Origin: a virus
IMG/VR virus record: IMGVR_UViG_3300003267_000167
Span: 1-54,190 of that record
Strand: one strand, 5' to 3'
DNA length: 54,190 nucleotides
Below the pieces are notes generated by a model. The model saw only the letters and a list, made by a program, of their open reading frames with translations, had not been told where the DNA came from and searched no databases. This document shows positions 6,764-54,190 of the stretch, in pieces. Position 1 is the first letter of the stretch; each line of letters starts with the position of its first letter. The translations under genes and the position numbers were made by a program.

Positions 6764-6971
6764 GGGCGAACCGGCAAGCGTCACGATGCGGATCGCGGAC
6801 CCGCTTATCGCGCTGGCGGTTGACCTGGCGGCGGCGGTCCTACTGACCGGACACGAACAGGACATGCGCGAACTGGCGGCGATGAAGGCGGCCGCGCTCA
6901 TGTGGGGCGTCAAACCGGACGCGGACGGCAACGTATGGGAGGAAAGCGAAGAGTTTGAAACCTACGGGTAA
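6726..6971 (+). CDS. overlapping second chaperone frame (T-like)
   Basis: An 81-residue frame starting at ATG 6726 inside the end of the chaperone gene, in the +1 frame. This frame is open from 6669, after TAG 6666-6668, so a +1 or -2 shift anywhere in 6669-6763 would fuse it to the chaperone. It encodes a hydrophobic helical segment (PLIALAVDLAAAVLLTG) and an acidic end (EESEEFETYG). No good ribosome site precedes ATG 6726, which favours frameshifting over independent initiation. The length and site fit the T domain that binds the tape measure. Confidence 0.6.
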   Translation: MNFLAVAKAAAYRGEPASVTMRIADPLIALAVDLAAAVLLTGHEQDMRELAAMKAAALMWGVKPDADGNVWEESEEFETYG

Positions 6972-6972
6972 A

Positions 6973-7006
6973 GCAAAACGCCGGGCATCTACACCCGGCG
7001 TTTTGC
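6973..7006 (+). terminator. perfect 13-bp hairpin between chaperone and tape measure genes
   Basis: GCAAAACGCCGGG (6973-6985) pairs perfectly with CCCGGCGTTTTGC (6994-7006) around an 8-base loop. The right arm carries four T followed by GC, so it is at best a partial intrinsic terminator. It ends 12 bases before the tape measure ATG, which has no visible ribosome site; translational control is an alternative. Confidence 0.6.
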
Positions 7007-7018
7007 ACTTGTGATGCT

Positions 7019-10000
7019 ATGGCGGATCAACAGATTGACACTCTGCTAAGATTTTTGGGCGAAGATGCCGGGGCGCTGGCGGCCATCAATGCCGTGTCTG
7101 CATCCTTGCAGGCGGCGGCCGCGCAGAGTCAAGCCCTGTTCGCGCCCATAATCGCCCAAGCGGCGCAAGCCGCCTCCGTCGTGCAGACGCTTACGACCGC
7201 GACGAACGCCGAAACCGACGCAGCCACACGGGCGGGCGGCGGCGAGCGCGAGCGCGCGTCAAGCGTCCTGGCGTTGGCGCAAGCCGTCGCGCGCTTGCAA
7301 GTCGCCGAAGGCAACGCGGCCGGCGCGGTGCAAACCCTCAAAGCCGCCTTGAGTGAGGCCGAAGCGGGCACCGTTCAATACGTCAACGCCCAACGGCAGC
7401 TTGTCACAATTGAGGCGCAGCTTGCCAATGCGGCCAGCAAGGCGGATGCCGAGATCGTCAAGCAGGCGTCCACACTCGCACGGCTGGCGCAAGTCTCCGG
7501 CGACTCCGCCAAGGCGCTGAAGATCATTGAGGACGCCCAAGCGCGGCTTGCGAATCCCAACTCCCTGGCGGCCGCGCGCCTGGAAATCCAAAAGACGTAT
7601 CTTAATACGAACTACGCGAATAGTCCGCTAGTCGGGATGCTGCAACAGATCAACGCCGGCCTTGGCCGCTTTTCGCCCTTACTCGGTTCAAGCGGCCGGC
7701 TAGTGCAGACCTTCACGGGCGGTCTCGCGCAAGCGGCGGCCAGTTTGGGCAGCACGAAGGCGAATCTTGACGCCAACGCGGACAGCGCGAATAAGTTTTT
7801 CGAGCGGTTGCGGAATGCGAATCAAGCCGTCGTGGATTTTGTCAAAGATCAGAAGGGCGAAGCCAGCGCGACGGACTTCTTTTTGAATTTATCGAAACAG
7901 GCGAGCGCGGCCGGAGATCGCATCCGGTCGGTTTTCGCCAATATCCGGCAATCGCTCGAAAATGCCCTAGGACCGAGCGGCGGCGGAAATGGCCTCGTTA
8001 CTACCCTTGGGCTAGGAAACGTCGCGCCAGCGGCAAACCAGGCGACAGCAACGCTATCAGGCTTGACGACGGCCGCCGAAGGGTCGGCCGAAGGCTTGGG
8101 CGCGGTCGGCGCGGCGGGCGGCGCGTCGGCGCTTGCCTTGGGCGCAGTGGTCGGCGTCGTCCTGGCCTTGGTTGCCGCGCTGGCGATCCTAATCACGTCG
8201 CTAACAGCCGGCACGAAGCTTTTAATTGACATGGGGGAGGCGGGCGTCAAGGCGAACGCCGACCTTGAGCATTTAAACCTTGGCCTGGCGTCCGTGATAA
8301 ACGGCATCGGCGAAGTGAGCCGGAACGGGATCAAACTGACCGGCGCGGAACAATTCCAAGCATCGCTCGCGCTGGCGACGGATCAAGTCACCAAACTCCG
8401 GCAAGAGGCGGCCGCCGTGGGCTTGCCCGTGCAAGAGGTTGTGGAGGGCTTGCAGACCACAGAGGGGCCGCTAACCCGCTTCGGTCTGAGCTTGGACGAC
8501 GCCCGCAAAACAACCATTAACATCGCCCTGGCGATGAACGCCTTGGGCATTCCCTTACGTGAAATCGGCCAGGAATCGCGCGCCATCCTGCAAGGCCAGA
8601 CCGACCGGACCGCGCGCTTGAATCAAATCCTTCAGATCACCAAAGAAGAGTTGGCCGCCGCCAAGGCGCGGAACGACGTGCAAGGCTTACTGAATGAACG
8701 GTTGGCCGGTTTCGCGGCCGGAGGCGCGGCCTTCGCGCAATCCTTTGACGGCGCGGTAGCGCGGGCACAATCCCGATTGACCGACCTTGAGCGGACCGTC
8801 ACGGGCGGATTATTTGAGGCGTTAAAGACGAAGCTTAACGACGTGCTAGATTCCGTCGCCAAGGCGGGCGGGCTTCAAAACCTTTTCGGCGGCATTGCCG
8901 ATACCCTCACGCGCATCTTTGACACGGCGGGCGGGACCATCGGCAAGGTAATTGATTTTATTTTTTCGAGTCTGCAAGCCGTTGACCGCTTCCTAGCGCA
9001 AAACCGGGAGACGGTCGGGGAGATCATCGAAGAGGTAAACCAAATTATTACCCTGATAGGCAGTACCGTCGCGGGCGTTTTGCGAATCACGCTTGGCGCA
9101 CAAGACGCCGGCAAAGAGGCGAACGTTTTAGCGGGCATCTTGCGCGCCGTCGTGGTTATCGTCGGCCTGGTCGGCGACGGGATCAAGATATGGATTTCCT
9201 CTTTCCTGACGGTCGGCAACGCCTTGAAATTGGCCGTCATTGCGCCGCTTGAGGTCACGGTGAAGCTTTTCGCGGCGCTGGTCTCCGGCATCCCGTTTAT
9301 CGGGGCGGCGGCCGACCGGGCGGCGAACGCCCTGGAATCGTCGCGCAAGTCCGCCGTCGCGGGCGTTACGGAGAGCGCAAAGAATTTCGCATCATCCATT
9401 GCGAACATCGGCCAGGCGTCCAAGCGCGCGAGCGAAGCCATAGACGAAGCCCGAAAGAAGGCGGCGGCCGGCCAGCGCGTGACGGCGCAAGCGGGCGCAC
9501 CGTCAACGGCGGGTCTCGCCTTTCAGGCCAGGCCGGGCACGCCGGACGACAAAAACAAGGGCGGCAAAGGGGCACTGGACGCGGCGCGGGCGTCGGCCGA
9601 AGCCCTATTGCGGATCACGCAGCTTGCCGAAAAAGAGGCGGCGCTTGCCAATCAACGGATCACGAACGCCCTGCGGCAATCGCTCACGGATCGTTTGATC
9701 TCAATCGAGACCTTTACGGAGCTTTCGATTCAGGCGGAGCGGGACTTGCTAGACGCTAAGCGCGCGGCCTTTGACGCCGAAGAGAAGGTCATTAACGACG
9801 GCGCGGCCAGCGAAGAGTCGGCGGCCATCAAATCGAGCAAAACGCGCGAAGCGGCCGCCAATAAGATCACGGCCATTGACGCCAAGCGGAACGAAAAGCT
9901 GGCGGAGTTAAACTTAAAACGCCAGGCGGCGGAGCAAGAGGCGGACATTAAGACCGAAGGCTTGCGCGACGATCTCCGGCGCGCGCAAGAGAAAAACGAG

Positions 10001-28681: not shown

Positions 28682-30910
28682 ATGGAATATGGCGAATTTT
28701 TAGCGTCGAAAGCGGCGCGGGTTGAGGACGCGGGGAAAGACCCGCAGTCAATTAACCGGCTTTTATTCACATGGCAGGCCGATATCGTCAAATGGGCGAT
28801 CAAGCGCGGGCGCGCGGCGATCTTCGCGGACTGCGGCATGGGCAAAACCCTGATGCAAGTCGAATGGGCGCGACAAATGGGCGAGCGCGTGCTAATCGTC
28901 GCGCCGCTCTCCGTCGCGCAGCAAACCATCGAAGAGGCAAAAAAGCTGAACGTAGAGATCGTCTACAAAGCCGCGCCGGATGATTCAGGCGGCATCTGGA
29001 TTACGAACTATCAAAAGCTTCATAAGTTTGTCGGCGTGCCATTTGATGCCATCGTGCTTGACGAATCTTCGATCCTCAAAAGCCTGGACGGCAAAACGCG
29101 CACGCTCTTACTTGAGCAATTTACGACCATCCCGTACCGCCTTTGCTGCACGGCGACGCCAAGCCCGAACGATCAGACGGAGCTAGCCAATCACGCGGAG
29201 TTTTTGGGCGCAATGTCGCGCGTTGAAATGCTCGCCACTTTCTTCGTCCACGACTCCGACCGGGCAGGGTCAAACGGCTGGCGGCTGAAAGGGCATGCGA
29301 AGGATGACTTTTGGCGATGGGTTGCACAGTGGGCCGTGTACATTCGCAAGCCGAGCGACCTAGATCACCCGGACGGCGATTTCATCCTGCCGCCGCTCAA
29401 CGTCCGCCAGGTACAAGTTGAATCGAACTTCATCCCAGACGGAAAGCTATTCCCAGACATTACGGCGGGCATTACCGGCCGCACGCAGGCGAGGCGTCAC
29501 ACGATGGACGCGCGCATCAACCGGGCGGTAGAGATTATCAAGAAATCAAAAGGGCAGTGGGTTGTGTGGTGCGGATTGAACGACGAAGGCCAGAAGATCG
29601 CCAAGGCGCTAGGACAGAAGGCGGCACTCATCGAAGGATCAACCGACGATGAATCACGCATCACGCTTGAGTCATGCTGGCGCGCGGGGAAGGTCAAAAC
29701 GCTCATCACGAAGCCGGGCATGTTCGGCTTCGGCCTCAACTGGCAGCACTGCCATCAAGTCATGTTCCTTGGGTTGGGGGATAGTTTCGAGCAGTGGTAT
29801 CAGTCCATCCGCCGATGCTGGCGATTCGGGCAGAAGTCGGCCGTTGATGTGGTCGTTGTTACGTCCGACGCGGAAATCAGCATCGTCGAAAACGTACAGC
29901 GCAAAGAGCAGCAGGCGTCCGAAATGGCGGCCGGCATCGTCGCCGCGATGAAGGACGCCCAAATTGAATCGGTACTTGGTAAACTTTCACGAAAGGATCA
30001 TTACACGATGAAAACGAAAAAGGCGGAGCAGTGGGAAGTCAAAATGGGCGATTGCGTGGAACGGGTCAAAGAGATCGAGACGGGCAGCGTCGGGCTGTCA
30101 ATCTTCAGTCCGCCGTTTAGCCAGCTTTATACGTATTCGGCCAGCGATCGCGACATGGGCAACACGAAAGATCACGCGGCATTTTTCGATCATTTTCGAT
30201 TTTTGATCCCTGAGCTACTGCGCGTGACGATGCCGGGCCGGCGTTGCTGCGTCCACGTTCAGCAAGTCGCACAGACGCTCGTCAAAGATGGCGTGATAGG
30301 GTTGTACGACTTCCGCGCCGACGTGGTGCGCGAGTTCGTCAAGGCGGGATGGGTTTACGATGGCGAAATTGTGATTGACAAAAACCCGCAAGCGCAGGCC
30401 ATCCGCACGAAGGCGAAGCAATTAATGTTCGTGCAAAAGAATAAGGACAGCGCATGGAGTCGTCCCGCGATGGCGGATTACATCCTGCTCTTTCGCTCGC
30501 CAGGCGCTAACGCCCAACCTATTACGCAATCGGCGACCAGTGGCGTCACCAATGAAGAATGGATCAAGTACGCGCATCCAATCTGGTACGACATCAACGA
30601 ATCCGACACGCTGCAATATACGAGCGCGCGAGAGCATCAAGACGAAAAGCACATCTGCCCGTTGCAGCTCGAAACCATCCGCCGATGCGTCCGGCTGTGG
30701 TCGAATCCGAATGACTTAATCCTTGACCCGTTCGCCGGGATCGGGTCAACCGGGCATATCGCAATGGAGCAGGATCGGCGATTCGTCGGGATCGAACTGA
30801 AGGAGTCGTATTGGAAGCAGGCCGTTAAAAACCTTCAGAACGCGGTCAAACAGCAAGCACTCTTCACGCCAGGAAGGGAAGCGCATGAATCCGTCGCCGT
30901 CCCCGCTTGA
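28682..30910 (+). CDS. DEAD-like helicase / DNA methyltransferase fusion
   Basis: A 742-residue two-enzyme protein. Residues 1-440 form an SF2 ATPase: CGMGKT (51-56), IVLDESSILK (motif II as DES), CTATPSPND (III) and a C-terminal half ending SIRRCWRFGQKSAVDVV. Residues 450-735 form a beta-class DNA amino-methyltransferase: SPPF near residue 475 (motif IV), then 'DPFAGIGSTG' near 681 (motif I), with FVGIELKESYW. The order IV then I defines the class; target N4-cytosine or N6-adenine. No restriction nuclease is nearby, so self-protection or regulation is likely. It follows the attenuator with ribosome site AAGGAG. Confidence 0.88.
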   Translation: MEYGEFLASKAARVEDAGKDPQSINRLLFTWQADIVKWAIKRGRAAIFADCGMGKTLMQVEWARQMGERVLIVAPLSVAQQTIEEAKKLNVEIVYKAAPDDSGGIWITNYQKLHKFVGVPFDAIVLDESSILKSLDGKTRTLLLEQFTTIPYRLCCTATPSPNDQTELANHAEFLGAMSRVEMLATFFVHDSDRAGSNGWRLKGHAKDDFWRWVAQWAVYIRKPSDLDHPDGDFILPPLNVRQVQVESNFIPDGKLFPDITAGITGRTQARRHTMDARINRAVEIIKKSKGQWVVWCGLNDEGQKIAKALGQKAALIEGSTDDESRITLESCWRAGKVKTLITKPGMFGFGLNWQHCHQVMFLGLGDSFEQWYQSIRRCWRFGQKSAVDVVVVTSDAEISIVENVQRKEQQASEMAAGIVAAMKDAQIESVLGKLSRKDHYTMKTKKAEQWEVKMGDCVERVKEIETGSVGLSIFSPPFSQLYTYSASDRDMGNTKDHAAFFDHFRFLIPELLRVTMPGRRCCVHVQQVAQTLVKDGVIGLYDFRADVVREFVKAGWVYDGEIVIDKNPQAQAIRTKAKQLMFVQKNKDSAWSRPAMADYILLFRSPGANAQPITQSATSGVTNEEWIKYAHPIWYDINESDTLQYTSAREHQDEKHICPLQLETIRRCVRLWSNPNDLILDPFAGIGSTGHIAMEQDRRFVGIELKESYWKQAVKNLQNAVKQQALFTPGREAHESVAVPA

Positions 30911-36235: not shown

Positions 36236-36904
36236 ATGGACCGGCTTAACTCTGTGAAACCCTCAAGGCAAGAATCCTTGTTCACGTTGGGCGCGATCGT
36301 CTTGGCTGTGCTTTTAGTGGAGCTTGGCGCGATAGCGATCTCCGCCGATGGCTACATGCCGCATGGCATGTGTTACCTGTGGGAGCCGCGCATGATCGCG
36401 TTGCACCTGGCCGCGGACCTGACGATATGCATGGCTTATTACGCAATCCCCTTCGTCCTGTGGCGATTCATCCGACGCCAGCGCGGGCATGCGGTCAATT
36501 GGATAATCGGTTGCTTCGCCGGATTCATCCTGTTATGTGGGACGACTCACTTAATAGCCTGCGTCACCATCTGGCACCCGTGGTACTGGTTTGACGGCGC
36601 GGTCAAGACGGCGACCGCCATTTTCAGCGTCGCGACGCTGGCGCTACTTTGGCGGATCACCCGGCGGGCGAAACCCTTGCCCGACGTGGAAGAGATTTAC
36701 CGGACGAACGCGGAACTAAGAAGGCGGATCGAACGGTTGCGCGCGACGTACCCGGAGGACCGCGGCATTTTGGAAGAGGACAAGGCGGCCGAAGTGTTGA
36801 GCGGGGCGCATCAGCTTTTAGACGATTACGCCTCTTTGGTCTCCGCGCTACGCGGCCATCCGAAGCCGGCGCAAGTCGGGAAACCCGCGGAGGACGCGCC
36901 TTGA
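36236..36904 (+). CDS. ethylene-receptor-like (ETR1-type) membrane sensor domain without kinase
   Basis: A 222-residue protein with four membrane helices (about 16-36, 54-76, 89-110, 121-139). The sequence PHGMCYLWEP, then 'LHLAADLTICMAYYAIP', 'FAGFILLCGTTHLI' and 'IWHPWYWFDGAVKTATAIFS' follows the ETR1/bacterial ethylene-binding domain closely. The copper-ligand pair corresponds to Cys101 and His105 (CGTTH) and the conserved Asp to Asp61. A coiled coil (about 150-205) follows, but no histidine-kinase or GAF domain. Start ATG 36236 is preferred; ATG 36182 is an alternative. A sensor, a decoy or an inhibitor of host receptor kinases are all possible; ligand binding is inference. Confidence 0.82.
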   Translation: MDRLNSVKPSRQESLFTLGAIVLAVLLVELGAIAISADGYMPHGMCYLWEPRMIALHLAADLTICMAYYAIPFVLWRFIRRQRGHAVNWIIGCFAGFILLCGTTHLIACVTIWHPWYWFDGAVKTATAIFSVATLALLWRITRRAKPLPDVEEIYRTNAELRRRIERLRATYPEDRGILEEDKAAEVLSGAHQLLDDYASLVSALRGHPKPAQVGKPAEDAP

Positions 36905-37395
36905 GCGGATGGCAGCAAGTCCTAGCGGCGATACTTTCCTCCGGCGTCGTTTCGGGCGTGGTCGGCCTCCTATTCGGCCGGAAGCTTGAGGCCGCCAAGG
37001 CGGATAAAGAGCGGGCGGCGGCGGAGGTTGACCGCGCCAACGCGCAGAACGCTGAAGCCAAGACCATTACCGAACTAATGGCCGCCTTCAAGCAGACGAT
37101 GGAAATGGCGCGGGAGTCCGACCAACGCCACCGGGAGACCCTTTTAAAACTGAGCGAGGCCGAAGCCACCCTGGCCGCCCGCGATTCTGTCATTGCCAAC
37201 TTGCGGCGAGACCAGGCGCTTTTAAAAGGGGACACGACGGAGCTACGGGCGGAAGTTACGGGCGTCGCGCTACAGTGCAGCGACCTGGCCGAACAGTGTA
37301 AAAAGATTTTGCGGAAACTGGACAACATCGAGCATGCGGCCGACGCGAGCGGCGCGCACGTCACCCCAACCCCTAACCCTTCGGAGAAGTCATGA
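36901..37395 (+). CDS. membrane-anchored coiled-coil protein
   Basis: A 164-residue protein starting with TTG 36901 (TTGA overlap with the ETR1-like gene). One membrane helix (residues about 7-25, [20 protein letters not shown]) leads into a long coiled coil (about 30-145). The coupling suggests a joint function with the sensor-like protein, perhaps through coiled coils. The shape also fits phage spanin or envelope proteins. It ends in a Pro/Asn-rich tail. Confidence 0.6.
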
Positions 37396-39317
37396 GCATT
37401 TCACGTCACCATTTCAGAGTTAGCGAACCGATTGCCGCCTTGGCGTCTTTGGTCTTTGGCCTGTGCGCCTTGGCGATTATCGGCCGGATGGTTTACCCGG
37501 CCGCGGCGCAAGGCCAACCGCAGACCGTCACGTTACAACCGGGTCAAACCCTCATGGTTAAATGCAACGGGCAGCAAGCGGCGGCGGAGTCCGTTGATAA
37601 ATTTAACATGCGGAATAAGTGCGGACCCGGACCGACGCCGACGCCCACACCAACGCCAACCCCAACCCCGAAACCGACACCAACGCCGACGCCGACGCTG
37701 ACACCAACCCCAACCCCAACGCCCGGACCGACGCCGACGCCAACGCCGTCAAACGGCGGCTTGCCGGCACCTTTAAGTCAGTTTGTAGATACGGCCTGGC
37801 CGACCAATCAAACGGGGGTCGTCCGAAAGATTTTGCCGGGCGGGGACTTTCAACAGGCGTTGCAAGACTGCCAGCCGGGCGACGATATAGAACTTGACGT
37901 TTCGGGCGTGTGGACGGGTAACTTTACATTCCCCGCGAAGGCCAACCCGAATAACCAATGGGTCATTATCCGGGCAAGTAACGTGACCGCCACGACCGCC
38001 GCCGCGGGCGCGGTGACGGCCGCCAGGGCGGGGAAGGGCAAGGCGCGGAAAGTGGTCTATTACCGGCCGGCGAAGGGGAAGGCGGCCGCCCGGACGGGCA
38101 AGGCGGTTGCCGCCTTCAAGTCTGCCGGCCAGCGCGTGACGCCGGGCGCGCAAAGCATGCCGGTCATTCAATCGCCCAACGTTTCGGGCGCGTTCTTTAT
38201 GTCCGAAAATTCCGGCTACGTCCGCCTTGTCGGCCTTGAAATGACGTTTACGCCGGCCGCCGCCGCGGACGCGCCCGGCGGTTTTACCGTGTGGCGCGTG
38301 TTGCAACTTGGTTCAACCGACACGACCGACGCGGCGAAAGTGCCGCATCACATCACGGTTGACCGATGTTACATTCACGGGTTGCCGACTAAAAACTTAC
38401 GCCGCGGCATTGAACTTAATAGCAACTGGACGGCGGTAATAGATTCGCAAATCCGTGAGGTCCATGAGGTCGGCGCGGACAATCAGGCCATAGGCGGTTG
38501 GAACGGCGCGGGGCCGTACAAGATCGTTAATAACTATCTCGAAAGCGGCGGGGAGATCGTCATGCTTGGCGGGTCGGACCCGAAGATTGCGAACCAACTG
38601 CCGCGCGATATTGAGGTCCGGCGCAACACGATAACGCGGCCGACCGCCTGGAAGACGGGCGCGATACATTGGGAGGTCAAAAACCTTTTCGAGGTAAAGC
38701 ATGGCATACGCTGGCTAGTGGACGGTAACACCTTCGCGAATAATTGGACCGACGCCCAGGACGGTTACGGGATTTTGTTACGATCCATGAACCAAGACGG
38801 CGGCGAAACATGGTCAATCTCAACGGACATAACTTTTACGAATAATACAATCACGTCCGAAAACGGGATAAACCTGAACGGGTTGGACCCGTACCACCCG
38901 GCGAACCAAATGGCGCGGCTTTTGATCTCTAACAACGTTTGGAACGTGACGGGGACATGGCTAAAGGCGTCGGACTTCATCAATTGCACCTTTGACCATA
39001 ACACGATTAACAACGGCTATTCCGTCACGAACCTATACGCCGGCCTCAAGCCCAACATGCCGGGCGTTCGATATACTTTCAACATAGCCAACCGCTCCGG
39101 CGGTTATGGCATCTTTGGCGATGCGGTTGGAGAAGGAACGCCAGCCCTTACGACGTACTGGCCGCAAGCGGCCTTGGCGTCCAACGTCCTGACGGGATGC
39201 GCCAACACTGGCGGCCAGTGTAACGGCTACCCGTCCGGCTTTTACTCTTCGGCGTCGTCCGTGCCGGGCGTCGGCGCGGACACGCAGGCAATCACGGCGG
39301 CGCAAAACCGCCCATAA
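37392..39317 (+). CDS. secreted right-handed beta-helix protein with Pro-Thr linker
   Basis: A 641-residue exported protein. Residues 12-40 form a signal segment ending in AAAQG. Residues 79-120 are a PTPTPT linker coded by hexameric repeats (about 37626-37749). Residues about 130-600 have the repeating polar turns of a parallel beta-helix ([63 protein letters not shown]). These sequences resemble secreted beta-helix proteins of Acidobacteriota rather than phage tail spikes. A surface polysaccharide-acting enzyme is possible; catalytic residues were not identified. The ATG overlaps the previous stop. Confidence 0.75.
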
Positions 39318-39331
39318 CCCGAAAGGTTCAC

Positions 39332-40360
39332 ATGAAAATCAAAACACTCTCCATTTTGTTTCTCGCGGTCTCCGTCACTCTGATAATGCCGGCGCGGACG
39401 CTCGCGCAAGCTTGCGTCCCTCCGGCCTATCAGGGCTTTGCTAATTCCTGCAAGGGGATCAACGCGCGGTGGCTGAATAAAAACGCGGTCAATGACATTG
39501 CGTTTTTTAAGCTGTATTGGGCGGCGGACGGCAAATGCAGCGGGGCCGACAATCAGGGCGTCCCGTGTGATTCCCCCCTGGCGGTCTTGCCGGGATCGGC
39601 GACCAACGCCGGCCGGACCGACCTATACCCTGGCTTTTCGAGTGCCATCACGATCACGCAAACGCTCAACAACGGCCTATCGTGCGCGACGGCGAGCGCG
39701 GGCAGTGTGCCGCACACGTACCCGCCGGACCTTTGCCAAGGGGTCGGCAATCAGCCGCTAGGCGTGGTCAACGCGGCGAACTACCGGAGTCAGGGGACGC
39801 CGGACAGCATCGCGGCCGCCTTCGCGGCCAATATCGCCACCTTTACCGCCTTGGCGTCGGGCTTGCCGCTCCCCTTGAACGTCGGGGGCGTCACGGTCAC
39901 TGTAGACGGGGAACCGGCCGGCATTTTTTACGTGTCACCCGGCCAGGTAAACTTTCTTGTCCCCGCGGACCTGTCGGCCGGCCTGAAAGTGGTTAGGGTC
40001 GCCAACGCCTCCGGGCAGACCTTCACGGGCGAATACTACCTTGGCGCGCAAGCTCCGGGCGTATTCACGCGCGACTCAACGGGCGAAGGTCCGGCAAGTA
40101 TGGACGTCGGGCCGGGCGGCGCGTATATCAGCTTGTATCCTACCGGCATCAATTCGGCGGCCGTCACCAAGGCGGACATTTTTTTGAGGACGTCAACCGG
40201 GCGTTACCCGGCGCAATACCTTGAAACGCCGGACCCGTCACACCCGGCGCAATTCGTCGGCGCGCGTCAATTGAATTTCGTCAACGTCCCTCTGGACGGG
40301 CAGGCGGCATACCTTGAGGTCGCCGGCTTTACGTCCAATACGTTCACGCTTCGGAGGTAA
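39332..40360 (+). CDS. secreted protein with Solibacter-type C-terminal domain (TIGR03437-like)
   Basis: A 342-residue exported protein with a signal peptide (cut likely after ARTLAQA, residue 27). Residues about 145-250 match the acidobacterial domain I know as TIGR03437: VVNAANYRSQGTPDSIAAAF, 'LPLPLNVGGVTVTVDGEPAG', 'IFYVSPGQVNFLVPADLSAG' and AQAPGVF. The N-terminal part has six Cys, probably disulphides. The domain is typical of large paralogous secreted families in Solibacter and relatives, and is very unusual in a phage. It suggests capture of a host gene. Function is unknown; it starts behind GAAAGG, 14 bases after the beta-helix gene. Confidence 0.78.
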   Translation: MKIKTLSILFLAVSVTLIMPARTLAQACVPPAYQGFANSCKGINARWLNKNAVNDIAFFKLYWAADGKCSGADNQGVPCDSPLAVLPGSATNAGRTDLYPGFSSAITITQTLNNGLSCATASAGSVPHTYPPDLCQGVGNQPLGVVNAANYRSQGTPDSIAAAFAANIATFTALASGLPLPLNVGGVTVTVDGEPAGIFYVSPGQVNFLVPADLSAGLKVVRVANASGQTFTGEYYLGAQAPGVFTRDSTGEGPASMDVGPGGAYISLYPTGINSAAVTKADIFLRTSTGRYPAQYLETPDPSHPAQFVGARQLNFVNVPLDGQAAYLEVAGFTSNTFTLRR

Positions 40361-40361
40361 C

Positions 40362-40580
40362 ATGGACAGTCGGGACCGGGAAGCGATTGACATGGAAGTT
40401 TCCAAGATCGTCGCGATTGAATTGGAACTAAAAACCATTCCGGGGCGCATTCGCGACGGTCTTAACGGGCGAGACTTAGAAGACAAACTTCTAAGTCTCG
40501 CCCTGGCGATTCACAACACGGCGGACAATCTCAAAGGGTTGAGCCGCCCGGAGGATCAACATGCGAACGCAGCGGCTTAA
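40362..40580 (+). CDS. small acidic helical protein
   Basis: A 72-residue protein starting at ATG 40362 behind GGAGGTAAC, one base after the previous stop. It is helical (SKIVAIELELKTIPGRIRDG, 'EDKLLSLALAIHNTADNL'). The codons for its middle form a perfect 16-bp hairpin (40467-40503). It overlaps the lipoprotein gene by 20 bases. Function unknown. Confidence 0.55.
   Translation: MDSRDREAIDMEVSKIVAIELELKTIPGRIRDGLNGRDLEDKLLSLALAIHNTADNLKGLSRPEDQHANAAA
40467..40503. repeat. perfect 16-bp inverted repeat in coding sequence
   Basis: GGGCGAGACTTAGAAG (40467-40482) and CTTCTAAGTCTCGCCC (40488-40503) are exact complements around ACAAA. No T-tract follows, so it is not an intrinsic terminator. Such a stable hairpin inside a gene could be a recombination or protein-binding site, or an RNase III processing site. 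Confidence 0.85.
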
Positions 40581-41097
40581 ACGCTTCGGCGTTACTCTCT
40601 TCGTGGTCTTGTTCGGACTCTCGCAATCCGCTTGCGGCGGTCCGACGCTGGCCAGCATCGGGCGCTATATCGGGCCGGTCGGGCAGGGGTTTAACGACTA
40701 CCTTGACCAACTGAAGGCGGCCGGCGAGATCACACAGGAAAACTATGATAAGGCCAAAAACCTTAACTTGCCCGGCAAGGCTAAAGAGGTCGGCGACTAC
40801 CTACAGAGCTTGACCGTTATCAACGCCGGCAACCGGGACGAAGTGTTAGCGGTGATTGACGGCGGCTTGAAAGTCTTTCGGGACGTGTCCGGCCTAGTCA
40901 AGCCGGGGAGCGCGGCCGCCAAGGTCGTCTTATACCTGTCAACCGCCTTGTCCGTGGCGCGGGGCGTCCTGGCGGCCATGCCTGTCAAGCCGGCGTCTTT
41001 CTCGATGAGCGCGAAAGAGGAAGGGAAGCGGCCGGCGGACGTGAAAATTGACTTGCCGCCGCCGCCGCCGGAGGTTAAAAAATATCTTCCGAAATAG
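40561..41097 (+). CDS. putative lipoprotein
   Basis: A 178-residue protein with a short signal peptide ending LSQSAC (Cys25), a lipobox-like site although Gln at -3 is atypical. The mature part is helical (RYIGPVGQGFNDYLDQLKAA, 'NAGNRDEVLAVIDGGLKV') and ends in a proline run (PPPPPEVKKYLPK). It starts within the previous gene. It could be an envelope-attached phage protein such as an exclusion lipoprotein or an Rz1-like partner; not proven. Confidence 0.6.
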   Translation: MRTQRLKRFGVTLFVVLFGLSQSACGGPTLASIGRYIGPVGQGFNDYLDQLKAAGEITQENYDKAKNLNLPGKAKEVGDYLQSLTVINAGNRDEVLAVIDGGLKVFRDVSGLVKPGSAAAKVVLYLSTALSVARGVLAAMPVKPASFSMSAKEEGKRPADVKIDLPPPPPEVKKYLPK

Positions 41098-53918: not shown

Positions 53919-54190
53919 ATGCCGGACTTAACCGCAGCATTTCAGAAAGTCTTTGGCGCTTTGCAATCGAAGATCATCCAAGCGCGGCCTTCGGACCTTC
54001 GGTTGTATGACGATGACGGCGCGTTGATTGACACCATCTTGAGCGGCGACGGCTGGTTTCCCGATGAGCTAACGCCGGAGCAAGTCGGCGAGCGGATGCT
54101 TGAGATTCACATCACGGACCGGGACGGCATAGATTTTTCAGCCGTCACATTCTTTGGCATCGGCGGGTACAAATACGAACGGCGCGGATT
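53919..54190 (+). CDS. 5' part of the gene spanning the window ends
   Basis: ATG 53919 opens a frame that runs to the last base and continues at base 1 (through the 18-base overlap) to TAA 161-163. The first part reads MPDLTAAFQKVFGALQSKII, later LRLYDDDGALIDTILSGDGW and 'GIDFSAVTFFGIGGYKYERR'. The full product is 138 residues. No family is recognised; it is likely a virion component since it lies between connector and fibre. Confidence 0.75.
   Translation, partial: MPDLTAAFQKVFGALQSKIIQARPSDLRLYDDDGALIDTILSGDGWFPDELTPEQVGERMLEIHITDRDGIDFSAVTFFGIGGYKYERRG
54173..54190. repeat. 18-bp end overlap of a circular genome (copy 2)
   Basis: Identical to bases 1-18. See the first feature; collapsing one copy gives the circular unit. 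Confidence 0.85.

Follow-up and report, generated by a model that had tools for sequence, protein, structure and literature searches.

The stretch of DNA that we analysed, called the window here, is 54,190 bases long and spans the entire IMG/VR record IMGVR_UViG_3300003267_000167. It carries a gene for a free-standing ethylene-binding domain (EBD), whose stop codon is overlapped by 4 bases by the TTG start of a partner gene (Table 1). The EBD product matches the Pfam profile ETR1_N over residues 53-145 with 103.8 bits, against a cut-off of 27; a rescan of the whole record with this profile gave 105.7 bits, and none of 14 control genomes matched.

Table 1. Features at and near the EBD locus; positions are those of the window, residues those of the respective product
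Feature	Position	Strand	Residues of note	Basis
Free-standing EBD gene, 222 aa from ATG	36236..36904	+		PF25487, E=6e-30; gene type shared by 25 viral records
Predicted extra N-terminal membrane helix, residues 11-35	36266..36340	+		AlphaFold2 model; alignment
Core helix 1, residues 51-81	36386..36478	+	Asp61 (codon 36416-36418), Tyr68, Ile71, Pro72	alignment, model
Core helix 2, residues 85-110	36488..36565	+	Ile98, Cys101 (codon 36536-36538), His105 (codon 36548-36550); Cys101 and His105 where ETR1 has its Cu(I) ligands	alignment, model
Core helix 3, residues 117-144	36584..36667	+	Lys124 (ETR1 K91 position), Ser131 (S98 position)	alignment, model
Partner gene, 164 aa; its single membrane helix continues as a long coiled-coil helix	36901..37395	+		sequence; model; similar genes at other viral EBDs
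Lipoprotein-like gene	40561..41097	+		sequence reading; no PHROG match

The AlphaFold2 model of the EBD product (mean pLDDT 83.8) shows four helices of membrane length: the three of the core, and an N-terminal one that alignment also places in the relatives L093 and L094. Judged by helix positions in this model, D61 lies in the second helix, C101 and H105 lie one turn apart in the third, in one predicted site, and K124 and S131 lie in the fourth. The residues D61, Y68, I71, P72, I98, C101 and H105 correspond, seven out of seven and at a constant offset of +36, to D25, Y32, I35, P36, I62, C65 and H69 of ETR1. We take Tyr32 of ETR1 to belong to the residues needed for ethylene binding. Five of the seven ethylene-binding residues are named in PMC6586836, and Asp25 is given as one in PMC12643061. 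Neither a kinase nor any other output domain is present in the product, in which only the helices 151-171 and 181-206 follow after residue 144. The initial annotation had described four membrane helices with the marks of the ETR1 and bacterial ethylene-binding domain, with Asp61, Cys101 and His105 at the positions of the Asp and Cu(I)-ligand residues and no kinase behind them; this description is borne out by the profile search, the alignment and the predicted structure. No relative of solved structure was found by sequence or fold search, and the sole significant viral fold match is A0A8E4UZR7 (E=1.5e-4), whose 289 aa equal the length of the protein from the phages Colly and Molly discussed below.

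The partner is modelled as a single helix over residues 16-149 (mean pLDDT 87.7). Genes of this one-helix, coiled-coil type occupy 14 of the 49 slots that adjoin viral EBDs, compared with 15 of 413 other slots (p=9e-8), and 4-base overlaps between the two genes are frequent.

The record is that of a real tailed phage, with genes for terminase, portal, head protease, major capsid and tail proteins. Its ends (1-18 and 54173-54190) are identical and an open reading frame crosses the join, so that the record, listed as linear in IMG/VR, probably represents a complete circular genome. Downstream of the partner gene lie a gene for a secreted-type protein with a long Pro-Thr repeat (37392-39317) and then a gene (39332-40360) whose product contains the TIGR03437 Solibacter domain (E=6e-24). 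The latter domain hints at a host among the Acidobacteriota, and the phage is likely a virus of soil bacteria from this phylum. Lipoprotein-like genes occur in the neighbourhood of other viral EBDs, and by analogy it is a possibility, and only that, that the lipoprotein-like gene of Table 1 belongs with the EBD gene set. Elsewhere in the window, a single open reading frame (28682-30910) combines a DNA helicase and an adenine DNA methyltransferase, which are encoded by separate adjoining genes in L100.

The initial annotation knew of no described phage example, and our literature search likewise found no description of an ETR1-type domain in a phage; most subscription journals lay outside this search, so an earlier description is possible. 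The same gene type is nevertheless found in 25 viral records, including those of cultivated phages. A tblastn search of a phage collection returned eight records of the Maribacter phages Molly and Colly (Colly1_63 scores 59.9 bits against ETR1_N). Further viral EBDs came from alignment and pattern scans of viral contigs, a single-sequence scan having given none, and all 29 viral records tested passed the Pfam cut-off for ETR1_N. Neighbourhoods and residues were counted over the 25 records with free-standing EBDs, in one of which (G023) the EBD is cut by the contig end; the fused EBD kinases of L011, L046/L052, L028, L022 and L048 and the EBD-STAS protein of L020 were left out. The viral contigs with EBDs fused to longer kinase-like proteins (L011 7950-9065, L046, L028, L022 and L048) are in some cases up to 279 kb long, and the protein of viral contig L020 (7746-8804) appears by eye to combine an EBD, a coiled coil and a STAS-like domain, as in stressosome proteins. 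Also by eye, a terminase-like gene in L096 (3075-6023) seemingly contains an intein.

A MAFFT alignment that combined 25 viral with 86 cellular sequences shows no variation at Cys101, His105 or Ser131, and Tyr68 is present in every sequence that covers its position; the invariance of Cys and His is partly forced by the search pattern and the script anchor, whereas that of Ser131 and Tyr68 is not. Asp61 is retained in 12 of 24 viral versus 79 of 86 cellular sequences, and it co-occurs with Lys or Arg at position 124 (p=0.003 among viral and 1e-7 among cellular sequences). All seven residues are intact in 8 of the 25 viral EBDs, that of the window included, versus 77 of the 86 cellular ones. Since Cys and His occur in all viral EBDs and the complete set in just these eight, the common ligand may be Cu(I) rather than ethylene; the copper site is likely the feature common to all, with ethylene binding likely confined to a subset. 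The dN/dS of about 0.26 in one viral clade indicates purifying selection. In the EBD tree the viral sequences stand apart from the cellular ones, with 5 changes as against a mean of 22.9 for shuffled labels, in a sample whose cellular members were picked for being close to the query; the branches are too weakly supported for acquisitions to be counted. The free-standing viral EBDs probably represent a largely phage-specific set whose members, judging from their residues, probably bind Cu(I). One could assume that these proteins serve to handle copper, buffering Cu(I) in the infected cell, as Cys and His are found in all members, even in those without Asp61. However, one buried Cu(I) per protein would make a poor buffer, and this explanation, which we consider highly improbable, accounts for neither the partner nor the lysis context described below.

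Bacterial EBDs are almost always fused to signalling domains. EBD matches were found 18 times in 297 sampled Acidobacteriota genomes; 17 of these fall in frames 422-1243 aa long, and the last is a partial match. Only one of 80 close GTDB loci, L152, holds an EBD that is free-standing and uncut by a contig end. Directly after this cellular EBD (907-1305) come a membrane sensor gene and response regulators, and together with the adjoining sensor the EBD is possibly a split receptor. The initial annotation had also suggested that the phage protein might act as a decoy or dominant partner for receptor kinases of the host, which would mean dimerising with those of the ethylene type. A free-standing EBD without an output domain would suit this role, and ETR1 is thought to dimerise mainly through its transmembrane domain (PMC12643061). 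However, just 14 of the 297 Acidobacteriota genomes carry any EBD, many viral EBDs lack Asp61 or Pro72, and the EBD genes are tied to phage genes, namely the coupled partner and often endolysins. Because few likely hosts have a target for it, we consider decoying of host receptors very unlikely. Of the earlier interpretation, the phage-encoded ETR1-type copper-site domain without a kinase stands and the decoy or dominant partner is not supported; sensing of a signal could be the better half of its functional guess, and the partner gene, the lysis context and the spread of the family had no place in it.

The EBD adjoins or lies near endolysin genes in about ten viral records. These endolysins belong to different families: GH108 in G002 and G004, Amidase_3 in Colly, M15_4/VanY in G021, Amidase_2 in G006, Muramidase in G009, Phage_lysozyme in G020 and GH25 in G030, with weaker M15-type matches in G005 and G013. 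A scan of 24-25 whole viral records for six endolysin families gave no match for M15_3, and all eight matches to the other five families fell within about 2.3 kb of the EBD. The combined p is 3.5e-4 for the eight matches and 2e-3 for the six over the cut-off, values that include some short contigs and four families (of the six) chosen after they had been sighted near an EBD. In G008, G011 and G012 no endolysin was found near the EBD. The window, scanned for the same six families, contains no recognised endolysin or holin, only the EBD-partner pair, and its EBD can therefore be placed in a lysis context by analogy only. The Phage_lysozyme match in G020 (6899-7237, minus strand, about 5900-6238 in L099; 45.6 bits, over the cut-off) contains one in-frame TAG, which may therefore be read as an amino acid, unless the gene is broken. 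In two phage contigs, L088 (5944-6573) and L188 (8108-8716 and 8727-9212, the last judged by eye), the genes next to the EBD encode PAS-domain proteins, one of which has membrane helices at both ends.

An alternative explanation is that the EBD gene is a moron in a variable late region, whose product, a membrane protein, would exclude superinfecting phages or protect or modify the host envelope. The secreted or surface-type genes that follow the EBD gene in the window (37392-40360) and the viral records without a nearby endolysin would agree with this; nevertheless, we regard it as unlikely, given that unrelated endolysin types lie close to the EBD in unrelated phages and that the partner gene recurs.

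The gene order in several phages bears on the question of whether the EBD is itself the holin. In G002, once the contig is closed over its 147-base terminal repeat (one mismatch), a gene for two transmembrane helices is followed by the EBD, the partner, a small gene, a GH108 endolysin and a GTA_holin_3TM holin; in G023 the order is EBD, partner and a 3TM holin (GTA_holin_3TM). In Molly and Colly the unnamed EBD gene lies between a one-helix, coiled-coil gene and the amidase endolysin. The paper on these phages lists the amidase as the only lysis gene and mentions unnamed transmembrane proteins near lysins (PMC8776804). A structural holin or pinholin, in which the helix bundle and the coiled-coil partner would permeabilise the membrane and the metal site would merely stabilise the fold, is consistent with the small size and the three to four membrane helices of the protein, and with the absence of a named holin in Molly and Colly, where the EBD gene directly precedes the amidase. 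However, the same cassettes of G002 and G023 contain separate canonical holins, and Cys, His and Ser131 are kept in all 25 viral EBDs, which is stricter than a pore alone should need. Among known holin families the EBD product has only a sub-threshold match (Phage_holin_3_6, 12.3 bits against 28.4), and no match to a PHROG lysis family was found. Because separate holins occur, we rank this possibility below that of a regulator and find it rather improbable.

Our tentative preference is that the EBD, with its partner, acts in the phage lysis cassette as a sensor or regulator at the membrane, working like an antiholin or as a trigger. This reading is favoured over that of a plain holin by the recurrent position of the gene, its coupling to a partner, the preservation of the metal site and the occurrence of separate holins in two phages. 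The phage EBD would sense Cu(I) or ethylene, another small ligand or the redox state of the membrane; it would act together with, and presumably contact, the small one-helix, coiled-coil partner, and the sensed state would be coupled to holin or endolysin release and thus affect the timing of lysis. By analogy with its relatives, the EBD of the window may belong to such a cassette. The seven ETR1 residues of the window's EBD, the neighbouring PAS proteins in two phages and the purifying selection in one clade count for a regulator. Against it count the window, where neither an endolysin nor a holin was recognised, the half of the viral EBDs that lack Asp61, the three records without a nearby endolysin, the partner proteins, which share their shape but little of their sequence (14-25% identity), and the fact that small proteins of the one-helix, coiled-coil type are common near lysis genes in general. 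A more specific version is a two-gene, ligand-gated lysis switch in tailed phages, in which Cu(I) together with ethylene or another small ligand would set the state of the EBD-partner pair and so restrain or trigger the holin and endolysin. We consider this version doubtful; if it were true, phages would time the lysis of their hosts by a gas or metal cue.

The ethylene-binding domain is the input of receptor kinases in plants and some microbes. If its link to lysis holds, a free-standing EBD in many unrelated phages would represent a new job for the domain and a new way for phages to sense their surroundings. The phages Molly and Colly of Maribacter forsetii DSM18668, which are in culture and carry the EBD gene beside the amidase, make this idea testable. 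The structure of the sensor may also become easier to obtain with a short, natural EBD that lacks a kinase, as full-length ETR1 has resisted crystallisation (PMC12643061).

With respect to known systems, the likeness to the antiholin RI of phage T4 lies in the proposed role only, that of a sensing element that controls lysis timing; according to PMC8385771, RI is located in the periplasm and is believed to sense the DNA of superinfecting phages. GTA_holin_3TM (PF11351) is likewise a small phage membrane protein with several helices and occurs in EBD cassettes, but it belongs to a different family and is encoded by a separate gene in G002 and G023. The N-terminal transmembrane sensor of plant ETR1 (PF25487) resembles the window's EBD in profile, in the seven ethylene-binding residues, in the Cu(I) positions and in the Lys and Ser of helix 3, whereas the latter is a phage gene product with an extra N-terminal helix and without GAF, kinase or receiver domain. 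The prokaryotic EBDs of SynEtr1 (Synechocystis) and AzoEtr1 (Azospirillum) have the same conserved residues but are parts of multi-domain kinases, while the EBD of the window stands alone; residues 1-130 of AzoEtr1 on their own, as a GST fusion, bind ethylene (PMC11819568). Colly1_63 of Maribacter phage Colly_1 (QQO97348.1) and its Molly homologues are, like the protein of the window, free-standing, have kept Cys and His and are encoded beside a one-helix, coiled-coil gene. They differ in sequence (22-28% identity), in having Asn at the position of Asp61 and Asp at that of Lys124, in their longer C-terminal part and in the location of their gene directly before the amidase.
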